From Dactylosporangium siamense (GTDB taxonomy: Bacteria > Actinomycetota > Actinomycetes > Mycobacteriales > Micromonosporaceae), in the NCBI RefSeq assembly GCF_016862795.1, contig NZ_BONQ01000183.1, forward strand, positions 1 to 64,000: a DNA stretch of 64,000 nucleotides. Direction: 5' to 3'. Shown one piece after another: positions 40,421-54,940 of this stretch. The notes beneath the pieces were generated by a model, which ran no database searches, had not been told where the DNA came from, and saw only the letters and a program-made list of their open reading frames with translations. The translations under genes were made by a program, and so were the position numbers. Each line of letters starts with the position of its first letter. Position 1 is the stretch's first letter.

Positions 40421-43400
40421 ATGAGCATGAGCGTTCGGGACCGTACGATCAGGAAGCCGGTGTCCGCCAGTGACCGCTGGTGGCTCGCGCACCCCGACAC
40501 GATCTCGCCCGTCATCCAGACCGTCGTCGAAGGCACCGGGTCCATCGACGTGGACGCCCTGTGGTCCGCCGTCACCGCGGTGGCCACGGCCTGCCCCGAC
40601 ACGGCCCTGCGGCACACCCGCAAGGCCTGGCTCGCCGGCGGCACCCCGCCGCGGGTCCGGGTGGTCCACGGCGCCGCCGACGGGACCGCCGTCGCCGGCA
40701 TCGACGCGCTGCACGACCCGCTGCCGACGCCCGACGGCGCCTGGTGCGAGGTGCTGCTCTGCCCCGGCGACCCGGCCGCCGTGGTGTTCCGCGCCTCCCA
40801 CGCCGTCATGGACTGGCCCGGGATGGCGCTGTGGATCGCCGACGTGTTCCGGGTCCTGCGCGGCGAGGCACCGCTCGGCGCCGCCGACGCCACCACCGAG
40901 GACGACATCTTCGACCGCTTCCCGGCACCCGCGGAGAAGCCGCCGAGCCCGAAGATCGAATGGGTCTCGCCGCTGGGCCAGCCGTCCGGCTCGCGGCGCA
41001 CCGCCTGGGCCCGGCGCACCGTCGACGGCTACCACCGGGGGCTCGTCGCGCAGGTCGCCGCCGCGCTCACCACCGCCTACGAGCTGCCGTCGGCCCGCTT
41101 CGCCGTCGCGTTCGACCTGCGCCGGCACGTCCCCGGCGTCCGCAGCACCGGCAACCTGTCCCAGGTCGAGCTGTTCGACTGCACCGCCGGCGCGCCGTGG
41201 GAGACGTTCCACGAGCAGGTCCTCACCGCGATGGCCGAGGGCCGCGAGGTCAGCAGCCGCCTCGACTCCGGGCTGCTGAAGCTGCCCCGGCCAATCCTGC
41301 GGACCCTGGTCAAGGCGATGGAGAAGGGCCCGGCCGACAAGCGCCGCTACGCCTCGGCGACCGTCGTGGCGCACCTCGGCCGGATCGAGCCCGGGTCGCT
41401 GTGCACCGACGGGTTCGAGGCCCGCACGCTGTACCCGGTGCCGCTGCTCACCGCCGGCAGCCCGCCCGACCTCAACCTCGTGGAGTGCGGCGGCCGCACC
41501 GAGCTGACCCTGACCTGGCGCGACGGCGACGGCGCGGCCGAGCGGATGGGCGCGGTCCTGGACACCGTCACCGAGGCCCTGTCGCCGCGGCGGTCCCGGG
41601 ATTGGGACGGCAACACGACCTCCGCGGCCGCTGACCCGGCGACCGTCGTGCAGCGCCTGCGGCAGGTCGTCGCGCAGCGCCCCGGCGCCGAGGCGGTGCG
41701 CTGGCCCGGCGGCTCCCTGACGTTCGCCGAGCTCGACGCCCGCTCCGAGGTGGTCGCCGCCCGGCTGCTGGAGCTCGGCATCGGCCGCGACGACGTGGTC
41801 GGGCTGTTCGCCGACCGGTCGATGTGGGCGATCATCGGCATGTGGGGGGTGCTCAAGGCGGGCGCCGCCTACCTGCCGCTGGACGTGCAGCACCCCGACG
41901 CGCGCCTGGCCGGCCTGCTCACCGACGCCGCCGCGCGGGTCTGCCTCGTCCAGGACAAGTACGCCGGCCGGTCCGTCACCGGGCCGGGCTGCACGGTCGT
42001 GCTGCTCAGTGAGCTCGCCACCGAAGGGGTGCCCGACGTCGGCGTGACCCCCGCCCCCGGCGACCTGGCCTACGTCATCTACACGTCCGGCTCCACCGGC
42101 AAGCCGAAGGGCGTGGAGATCGAGCACGCGGCCCTGGCCAACTACGTCGACTGGACGACGAGCCGGTTCGGCTGCGGCCCGGACACCGCCTTCGCCGTGT
42201 TCACCTCACTCGCGTTCGACCTGTCCAACACGGCGCTGTTCACCCCGATGCTCGCTGGCGGCACGCTGGTGCTCGTCCCCGACGAGCCGAACCATCTGAC
42301 GCTGCGGCACCTGCTGGAGCACTCGGGCGCCGACACGCTGTCGCTGACCCCGTCGCACCTGGACCTCATCGGCCAGCTCGACCTGGACCCGGCCGGGTTC
42401 AAGGTCCTCGTCGTCGTCGGTGAGCAGCTGCGGTCGGCGGTCGCCGCGCGGGCCCGGGCGATGTTCGGTCCCGGCTGCCGGGTCCTCAACATGTACGGGC
42501 CGACCGAGGCGACCGTCGGGCTGACCCTGCACGAGTGCACCGCGGCGGACGACGCGGCCCCGGCGGTGCCGGTGGGCCTGCCGATGGACAACTGCACCGT
42601 GCACCTGCTGGACCCGCAGCGCCGCTTCGTCGCGGCGGGGGAGATCGGCGAGATGTACCTCGGCGGCGCCCAGCTCGCCCGCGGCTACCGCAACCGGCCC
42701 GACCTCACCAGCGAACGGTTCGTGCACCTGGCCGACGGCACCAGGGTGTACCGCACCGGCGACCTGGCCAGGGTGCTGCCCGGCGGCGAGCTGGAGTTCA
42801 TCGGTCGCGCCGACGACCAGGTCAAGGTCAACGGCTACCGGATCGAGCCCGCCGAGATCGCCCACGTGCTGCAGCGGCACCCGGCGGTGCGGGCCGCCGT
42901 CGTCGTCGCGCGGACCCGCCCGGGCGCGGAGCACAAGCAGCTGCACGGCTACGTGGTGCTCGAACCGGGCGCGGAGGCCGCCGACTGGGACGCGTTCCTC
43001 GGCGAGCACCTGCCGCGGTACATGGTGCCGAGCGCGACGACGGTCATCGACGCCGTGCCGCACAACGCGAACGGCAAGGTCGACGTGGCGGCGCTGCCCG
43101 ACCCCCACGCTGCGCACGCAGCGACCGGGCCGGCGGTGACGGCGAGCGGCGACGAGGTCCGGCTGGCCGTCGCCCGCGTGTGGGCCTCGACGCTGAGCCT
43201 GGACGAGGCCCGCCTCGACGAGGCCGCCGACTTCCACCACCTGGGCGGCAACTCGGTGCAGCTGCTGGCGATGCTCGCCGGGGTGTGCCGCGACGTGGTC
43301 GGCGCCGGCGCGGAGCGGGCGTTCATGGCCGAGCTCGGCAGCATCATCCGCGAGCCGACGCTGGAGCGGGTCAGCGACATCGCCCGCCAGGCCCGCGACG

Positions 43401-43432
43401 GCGCACCGATGGCGGTGCCAGCCGCCGGCTGA
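40421..43432 (+). CDS. Stand-alone NRPS (condensation-like, A, T), paralogue 1
   Basis: ATG 40421 gives 1003 aa. Residues 1-400 form a condensation/acyltransferase-like domain beginning SASDRWWLAHPDTISPVIQT, with RASHAVMDWPGM (HxxxD, residues 127-131) in place of HHxxxDG, more like PapA/WS-DGAT acyltransferases than standard C domains. The A domain (about 410-910) has YTSGSTGKPKG and NANGKVD. The T domain carries Ser in HHLGGNSVQLLAML (residue 945). The code by eye is D-L-T-S-V-V-M-V-G-K: related to Asp/Asn codes but lacking the Lys at position 278 that pairs with the Asp side chain, so its substrate has probably changed. It is closely related to the proteins at 43956 and 51908 and heads the long operon. 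Confidence 0.92.
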   Translation: MSMSVRDRTIRKPVSASDRWWLAHPDTISPVIQTVVEGTGSIDVDALWSAVTAVATACPDTALRHTRKAWLAGGTPPRVRVVHGAADGTAVAGIDALHDPLPTPDGAWCEVLLCPGDPAAVVFRASHAVMDWPGMALWIADVFRVLRGEAPLGAADATTEDDIFDRFPAPAEKPPSPKIEWVSPLGQPSGSRRTAWARRTVDGYHRGLVAQVAAALTTAYELPSARFAVAFDLRRHVPGVRSTGNLSQVELFDCTAGAPWETFHEQVLTAMAEGREVSSRLDSGLLKLPRPILRTLVKAMEKGPADKRRYASATVVAHLGRIEPGSLCTDGFEARTLYPVPLLTAGSPPDLNLVECGGRTELTLTWRDGDGAAERMGAVLDTVTEALSPRRSRDWDGNTTSAAADPATVVQRLRQVVAQRPGAEAVRWPGGSLTFAELDARSEVVAARLLELGIGRDDVVGLFADRSMWAIIGMWGVLKAGAAYLPLDVQHPDARLAGLLTDAAARVCLVQDKYAGRSVTGPGCTVVLLSELATEGVPDVGVTPAPGDLAYVIYTSGSTGKPKGVEIEHAALANYVDWTTSRFGCGPDTAFAVFTSLAFDLSNTALFTPMLAGGTLVLVPDEPNHLTLRHLLEHSGADTLSLTPSHLDLIGQLDLDPAGFKVLVVVGEQLRSAVAARARAMFGPGCRVLNMYGPTEATVGLTLHECTAADDAAPAVPVGLPMDNCTVHLLDPQRRFVAAGEIGEMYLGGAQLARGYRNRPDLTSERFVHLADGTRVYRTGDLARVLPGGELEFIGRADDQVKVNGYRIEPAEIAHVLQRHPAVRAAVVVARTRPGAEHKQLHGYVVLEPGAEAADWDAFLGEHLPRYMVPSATTVIDAVPHNANGKVDVAALPDPHAAHAATGPAVTASGDEVRLAVARVWASTLSLDEARLDEAADFHHLGGNSVQLLAMLAGVCRDVVGAGAERAFMAELGSIIREPTLERVSDIARQARDGAPMAVPAAG

Positions 43433-54900: not shown

Positions 54901-54940
54901 GGCGCAGGCGGTGCCGCGGGGCGAGACCGTCGGCGCCTGA
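51908..54940 (+). CDS. Stand-alone NRPS (condensation-like, A, T), paralogue 3
   Basis: I chose TTG 51908 because GAGAGGGAGG at 51893-51902 is correctly spaced before it; the alternative GTG 51827 adds Arg-rich low-complexity sequence. The 1010-aa product repeats the architecture of the genes at 40421 and 43956: an N-terminal domain starting SPVEWWIAAHPRGAVPVLQV with RASHAVMDAGGV (His 128), an A domain ([18 protein letters not shown]) and a T domain (HQLGGDSLLMLSMV, Ser 940). The code by eye is D-V-T-T-G-A-L-I-E-K, which I cannot assign. It is more divergent than the other two. A 190-bp gap separates it from the sugar reductase and 83 bp from the PKS, so it may have its own promoter or be translated on the long transcript. 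Confidence 0.92.
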   Translation: MPSTDQRQSATFRRAVSPVEWWIAAHPRGAVPVLQVAVEGVGALDPDRLAEAVTAASDACPGTRLARKGREWVDTGRPPAVRLAASGDGTPVHRLPELQEPLLHRGGPTCEVLLVGGASPAVVFRASHAVMDAGGVLLWAADVFRALRGEPLTGATDTVTEVDLLPPLTQKPTPPTMQYPALLGERTPGTPRRTLWLRRSVDGYHAGLIARLATAIAPLCGGDAQFAVPVNLRRYAPQTRSTASLSHSLPFTVPAGQDWEATHERLLTMLAEERDAQARLDPAVLKIPQPLLRFINGALESKAVKQNRYPSHASLAHLGRVDVEEFSTASFTATALYSLSSSPAGGPVELDAVECAGHTELTLSWHDGPGIEEKATALLDLIEEALSPAKLRTPSTLLRPASRTVLPAFAAQCAATPDALAVTGPDGDLTYAELDRRSRVVATALRARGIGREDVVGVLADRTAEAVAAIWGVVRSGAAYLPLDTQHPDTRLAGILTDARAPVCLVQRPHAERAAVPAGCVTVLLDELTGEPPADWAEPATGPGDLAYVIYTSGSTGRPKGVEIEHGALANYVAWATRDLGVDASTRMPLLTSFAFDVSCTTLFLPLLVGGSVLLPRGDLNHATLRALLTEDAPTVLTMTPSLLELICELDVRPSTVRVIGAAGEVLRRSVALQALEMFGPECRVMNLYGPTEATIECLAHTFDPATDTAAGVPIGVPPDNCTAHVLDAQHRFVGPGEVGELYIGGVQLARGYRGRPDLTRTRFVRLADGTRVYRTGDVVRVTDAGVVEFLTRADDQVKVLGNRIEPAEIAQALEDHPTVSRAAVLARSRPGSEHKLLCAYVVGTSPDPAQLQAFVAERLPRYMVPATVTVVAELPRTVNGKIDVRALPDPFAGADEPAADHSGRDEVTRAVAAIWSGTLGVDPDRLADDTDFHQLGGDSLLMLSMVGAVCRDVVGAAAEPLFMARLGEIVREPTIARVAAVARDAASGGAVPAGSIPAQAVPRGETVGA

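Follow-up and report, generated by a model that had tools for sequence, protein, structure and literature searches.

What could three separate one-module synthetases be doing in one cluster that continues into a modular polyketide synthase (PKS)? The question is raised by a gene block (40421..54940) of the soil actinomycete Dactylosporangium siamense, located in the 64,000-nucleotide stretch analysed here (positions 1-64000 of contig NZ_BONQ01000183.1, called the window below; GC content 73%, in a genome of 12.7 Mb). Each of the three proteins, CAT1, CAT2 and CAT3, consists of a front domain (C*), an adenylation (A) domain and a thiolation (T) domain. The original prediction was that they may attach amino acids one by one in trans through a mechanism not described before. 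We propose, with a probability of roughly 70%, that they are aminoacyl-ester synthetases of the type of LstE from lipstatin-type operons, acting in trans on a hydroxyl of a glycosylated macrolide. The three genes and a small gene between the first two are as follows.

40421..43432, plus strand: CAT1, C*-A-T synthetase of 1003 aa, specificity code DLTSVVMVGK
43468..43959, plus strand: protein of 163 aa of no assigned family, from the open reading frame (ORF) list, with an ATGA overlap with the CAT2 start
43956..46997, plus strand: CAT2, C*-A-T synthetase of 1013 aa, code DLTKVGHIGK (Asp)
51908..54940, plus strand: CAT3, C*-A-T synthetase of 1010 aa, code DVTTGALIEK

Above or near the cut-offs, Pfam detects only AMP-binding, AMP-binding_C and PP-binding in the three proteins, the PP-binding score of CAT1 (18.7) being slightly below the cut-off of 20.8. 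The first ~400 residues have no Pfam match, and Pfam finds neither a thioesterase (TE) nor an upstream partner module on the same protein in any of the three. The SHAVMD motif, on which the description of the proteins as paralogues with an unusual front domain had been built, is located at residue 126 in CAT1, 131 in CAT2 and 127 in CAT3. All three have the A-domain core motifs that were looked for, except that the A6 pattern used did not match CAT2, and each has the T-domain serine. An alternative start of CAT3 at GTG 51827 would give a protein of 1037 aa. The specificity codes were extracted with a pattern script. That of CAT2 is the textbook Asp code and the other two are changed, in agreement with the earlier reading of the codes; the CAT3 orthologues described below have A instead of G at the fifth code position.

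The front domain has ~390 aa. Its SHAVMD is a conservative variant of the HHxxxDG motif of condensation (C) domains that retains the Asp and the catalytic second His, only the first His being replaced; the HxxxD of PapA/WS-DGAT acyltransferases is also present. An alignment of 33 family members shows no variation at H121, D125 and G128 (xHxxxDxxG), at the two Arg of LRRH or at the Gly of HLGR. Thirteen C* domains gave no relevant match in Pfam, PF00668 and the PapA/WS-DGAT families included, at a limit of E 10 with the HMMER filters on. PDB searches with the C* sequence or profiles yielded no match or chance-like matches only.

Profiles were compared with hhalign, whose E-values refer to single comparisons. 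The C* profile aligned to a set of 20 free-standing condensation-like proteins from the same genome (reading frames chosen by C-domain score) with a probability of 92.8% (E 4.1e-7) over 363 columns with HxxxD in register, and to seven of these proteins alone with 87.7%. Against 28 ordinary C domains, from 30 loci, it reached 1.8% (E 0.027), little more than the 0.8% (E 0.073) obtained with an unrelated A domain as control. As a positive control, the free-standing proteins matched the same 28 C domains at 99.9%. Because C* scored so low against C domains that the free-standing proteins recognise readily, it does not belong to the ordinary LCL or starter C domains, as the original prediction had suspected. 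All five free-standing proteins that were checked match PF00668, whereas C* does not. Searches of the genome with the WS-DGAT (PF03007) and AATase (PF07247) models gave no match, but the controls were matchless too, so that these searches are uninformative. C* likely has the condensation fold; it is a family of its own that, by profile, is close to the free-standing condensation-like acyltransferases.

To what kind of pathway does such a protein belong? C* was found in 13 of 354 genomes of Micromonosporaceae, to which the window belongs (E 1e-5), in 36 of 392 genomes of the genus taken as Streptomyces (E 1e-8), and in two of 396 genomes of a sample of the phylum, the D. siamense genome being one of the two. 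Over 19.6 kb, one genome of the second set (G821) shares 99.9% identity with Streptomyces sp. NBC_01768. Lone C*-A-T proteins from Streptomyces and Micromonosporaceae have a C* that is 36-47% identical to that of CAT2, and outside Dactylosporangium each locus among the relatives examined has one C*-A-T. The Streptomyces matches were grouped into 36 regions covering 40 match rows (the short, weak matches in G980 and G1059 were left out, and each of two split matches falls within a single region), with context sequences mostly within 10 kb of C*. Homologues of LstA, LstB, LstC and LstD are all present in 15 of these regions, 13 of which also have a formyltransferase; in these lipstatin-type operons the fifth gene encodes the C*-A-T protein, although in one of them (L247) the contig ends before the A domain. 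Six regions have a ketosynthase (KS) of a modular PKS at 60% or more, three of them together with a TauD-type hydroxylase, and one is a short contig with a formyltransferase only. The remaining 14 have no lipstatin-type or PKS context of their own (L253 overlaps the operon of L234), and in eight of these C* is free-standing.

The same contexts recur elsewhere. Eight of 23 plasmid matches were examined. Four, L199 among them, were lipstatin-type operons with KASIII, KASIII-like, ligase, reductase, C*-A-T and formyltransferase genes in that order; two had a modular PKS with TauD; one, in S. angustmyceticus, was a macrolide cluster with PKS, glycosyltransferase/sugar and futalosine-pathway genes near the C*-A-T gene; one had no clear context. 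In Micromonosporaceae, a lone C*-A-T follows homologues of OleA, P450, OleC and OleD in three genomes (G154, G207, G252) and homologues of LstA-D in a fourth (G019). A C-domain query, the only one used, matched one of 54 context sequences, and this was a further Dactylosporangium copy of the present cluster (G104). Some C* domains have no A-T attached, which is what one would expect if C* is an acyltransferase. In two such cases, G040 and L194 (genome G589), it accompanies LstA-D homologues, and there it may O-acylate from acyl-CoA instead.

Most lipstatin-type members have the code DIFA..[GA]V[AV]K, DLMGQG[IV]VAK or DLTKVGEIGK, and the TauD-linked PKS members have DLTK[IV]GE[IV]GK, which is Asn-like. 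The TauD-family proteins at 9086-9943 of L195 and 8930-9973 of L197 adjoin Asn-coded C*-A-T genes; that of L195 is nearest, below their cut-offs, to the hydroxylases GntD, clavaminate synthase and VioC. Such pairs may give beta-hydroxy-Asn esters on polyketides.

Lipstatin carries a formyl-Leu ester on its 3-hydroxyacyl-derived oxygen, and by its fifth position in the lipstatin-type operons we take the C*-A-T protein to be LstE, which would esterify this hydroxyl with an amino acid. Two papers describe LstA and LstB as adjacent KASIII-like partners making the lipstatin backbone from 3-hydroxyacyl-CoA (PMC12141560, PMC7064751). Because these operons show no other non-ribosomal peptide synthetase (NRPS) or upstream donor module, C* would have to be supplied by the T domain of the same protein and to pass the amino acid to a small-molecule acceptor. 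Because the window proteins are homologous to the lipstatin-type C*-A-T proteins, they most likely do the same on a macrolide or its deoxysugars. In the proposed mechanism, the A domain of each CAT would activate one amino acid, aspartate in CAT2 as judged by its code and different ones in CAT1 and CAT3, and load it onto its own T domain. C*, acting as an O-acyltransferase of the condensation superfamily, would then take this aminoacyl-T as the donor, whereas in a normal C domain the downstream T is the acceptor. The receiving hydroxyl would be that of a substrate either untethered or already finished, in this cluster most likely the aglycone of the macrolide or one of its deoxysugars, and the three paralogues could place up to three different amino acids. 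Attachment in trans is thus retained from the original prediction, with an ester as the best reading of the bond. The novelty it claimed for the mechanism is not, considering the fifth gene of the lipstatin-type operons and the precedents of LstE and of AstC from ansatrienin biosynthesis.

A quickly built tree of 50 full-length C*-A-T proteins, with SH-aLRT support, places 27 of them, including all 12 from Dactylosporangium, in a clade separate from the LstE-type proteins (support 100). Within this clade, a modular-PKS KS at 60% or more is found beside eight members, five of them with a TauD-type hydroxylase as well, and the S. angustmyceticus protein with its macrolide PKS and glycosyltransferase neighbours is also a member. 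Seven members are labelled 'other'; the position of two 'long' rows (L239, L257) is unsure. CAT1 groups with CAT2 as its sister (100), and CAT3 is located elsewhere in the tree. A single clade of CAT1-3 was not rejected by the approximately unbiased (AU) test (p 0.445), and we claim neither a single nor a separate origin.

Several points weigh against the proposed esterification of a macrolide. Among the seven 'other' proteins of the clade, six lack a modular PKS in the ~10 kb that was searched, and the macrolide link of the clade is therefore not general. The condensation fold of C*, though likely, was deduced from the profile match and the motif register, and the product of the cluster is predicted from sequence. 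No homologue of LstA, LstB, LstD or LstF is present in the window (E 1e-5), and the LstC matches fall in A domains. The bond may instead be an amide to an amino group. A description of LstE was not found in the available parts of PMC12141560, PMC7064751 (including section 11), PMC13311259, PMC4979870, PMC8949500, PMC4763440, PMC6117699 and PMC10683483, and literature searches for LstE, esterastin and AstC returned no describing paper.

The arrangement of the three genes is conserved within the genus. The genome collection contains full-length relatives of CAT2 in Dactylosporangium fulvum and D. vinaceum, of the same genus and family. In both, the three CAT genes are kept in the same order with the same neighbours, and the orthologues are 72-78% identical. 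The fourth genome of the genus with the three CATs is G104, in which CAT1 is split across frames in a draft contig; three further Dactylosporangium genomes of the same search have no match to the domain. Recurrence with the same order and neighbours makes the CAT set more than a chance assembly. The 163-aa protein, to which the original prediction had coupled the synthetases, does overlap the CAT2 start with its ORF. It has no match in Pfam or NCBIfam and no relative near the other C*-A-T genes examined, although no database-wide search was made, and among the contexts examined it is confined to the four Dactylosporangium clusters. Being absent from all other C*-A-T contexts examined, it does not belong to the general C*-A-T mechanism.

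In the window the three CAT genes lie in a single macrolide cluster. Transporter, sugar and methyltransferase genes set CAT2 and CAT3 apart, and the modular PKS begins after CAT3.

38727..40292, minus strand: nucleoside diphosphate (NDP)-hexose 2,3-dehydratase (Pfam), divergent from CAT1
46966..47895, plus strand: ABC transporter ATPase (Pfam), overlapping the CAT2 end
47892..48737, plus strand: ABC-2 transporter permease (Pfam)
48741..49946, plus strand: macrolide-family glycosyltransferase (Pfam; TIGR01426 above cut-off)
49943..50731, plus strand: FkbM-type methyltransferase (Pfam, NCBIfam)
50728..51717, plus strand: Gfo/Idh-type oxidoreductase (Pfam), likely an NDP-hexose ketoreductase by inferred function
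55024..64000, plus strand: modular type I PKS protein, the first in the cluster, running past the window end

In D. fulvum, with gene calls from a simple script based on GC content at third codon positions (GC3), the PKS comprises three proteins with 3+3+5 modules as counted by acyltransferase (AT) motifs. It is followed by a type II thioesterase and further glycosyltransferases (by eye), and by two AT-like proteins.

An extra copy of MqnA, of the futalosine menaquinone pathway, is encoded at 6217674 of the D. fulvum chromosome (G001), at 6972173 in D. vinaceum (G002) and at C158:30982 in the window genome. The D. fulvum copy, with an MqnC-like gene beside it (by eye), is located at the end of the CAT/PKS cluster. 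These extra copies are 77-79% identical to the copy near the S. angustmyceticus CAT, compared to 60-64% for the other MqnA copy in each genome. By analogy with PM100117, for which PMC4763440 describes the use of futalosine-type genes for a naphthoquinone, the Dactylosporangium macrolide may also carry one.

Other functions for the CATs were weighed, and are taken here in order of decreasing likelihood. One is a variant of the proposed ester synthesis that we regard as unlikely, in which the CATs would act in sequence on the finished glycosylated macrolide, each using the side chain or amino group of the previous amino acid, or successive sugar hydroxyls, as its acceptor. If true, single modules would extend a small-molecule primer by an oligo-aminoacyl side chain, as a peptide or depsipeptide, and no carrier protein would serve as acceptor.

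Rather improbable is a role as trans-loading helpers for the neighbouring NRPS (21313-32960), in the manner of the stand-alone A-T modules of ramoplanin and enduracidin. The second NRPS protein (28161-32960) has two C, one A and two T domains, its final module (C-T) being without an A domain, and there is precedent in that stand-alone A-T modules complement in trans; in enduracidin and ramoplanin such modules have ~300 additional residues at the N-terminus, according to PMC8949500. However, a single module lacking an A domain cannot account for three CATs, and the lone C*-A-T proteins of lipstatin-type operons have no nearby NRPS to feed. A better candidate for such a helper is the adjacent minus-strand A-T gene (35423-38002), preceded by a partial C domain only. 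The A code of this gene, read by hand, appears Cys-like, and the gene belongs to an overlapping operon (35423-38928, minus strand) with an amino-acid racemase nearest to the cysteate racemase CuyB, below its cut-off. A carbamoyltransferase gene (33308-34771), NodU-like below the cut-off, also adjoins the NRPS.

We consider it still more doubtful that the CATs provide the PKS with an aminoacyl or peptidyl starter, to be moved by the two AT-like proteins of the cluster. VinK carries out such a transfer in macrolactam pathways. The first PKS protein begins with a docking-like segment (by eye), with no loading module seen before the first KS, and the two downstream AT-like genes of D. fulvum are 48% and 41% identical to the neighbour of the S. 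angustmyceticus CAT. On the other hand, three distinct codes are hard to reconcile with one starter, the motif scan revealed no small stand-alone acyl carrier protein, and the lipstatin-type contexts lack a modular PKS. A search with one of the AT-like proteins does not support its assignment as a VinK, since malonyl transacylases were matched with a best E of 1.5e-11 compared to E 0.53 for 5czc, which we take to be VinK.

Finally, although one cluster holds three C-A-T proteins with intact A and T motifs, it is very improbable that they are ordinary consecutive NRPS modules making a tripeptide, as the original prediction had also held: the front domains have no PF00668 match and have another residue in place of the first His of HHxxxDG, transporter and sugar genes separate the CATs, the proteins end 58-70 residues after the T serine and by eye show no docking-like extension there (no dedicated docking search was run), none of the CATs has a TE, and relatives outside Dactylosporangium have a single C*-A-T per locus.

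The proposed trans esterification by LstE-type synthetases would be a mechanism that is not new in kind, as single enzymes of this type are known; what is unusual is that a single glycosylated macrolide cluster has three paralogues, each with a code of its own. The C*-A-T family is recognisable even though its front domain has no Pfam model, and it can be used to predict amino-acid esters in natural products. The three CATs predict an unusual, multiply aminoacylated glycoside from D. fulvum NRRL B-16292 and D. vinaceum NRRL B-16297. They also form a matched set for learning how C* chooses its hydroxyl, which could be useful for late-stage macrolide aminoacylation.

We have compared the CATs to four known kinds of system. 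With the free-standing PapA-like condensation acyltransferases they share the C* motif in register and a near full-length profile alignment; unlike the C*-A-T proteins, these acyltransferases have no A-T, show low sequence similarity and match PF00668 (in the five checked). AstC of ansatrienin, an NRPS of three domains by which D-Ala is esterified to a hydroxyl of the macrolactam, would resemble the CATs in ester chemistry and acceptor type; it is one enzyme for one amino acid. The C*-A-T proteins with TauD/TfdA in Streptomyces PKS clusters (NBC_01768, S. atratus plasmids) belong to the same clade as the CATs and have an adjoining modular PKS, but occur singly, have an Asn-type code and are accompanied by a dedicated hydroxylase. 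The LstE-type proteins of lipstatin-type operons share with the CATs the front-domain family, the order of N-terminal domain, A and T, and the size, and in the one checked (L199) the first 413 residues likewise have no Pfam match. They differ in having LstA-D neighbours, mostly with a formyltransferase, and one C*-A-T per operon, whereas the CATs are three paralogues of a separate clade in a glycosylated macrolide cluster.

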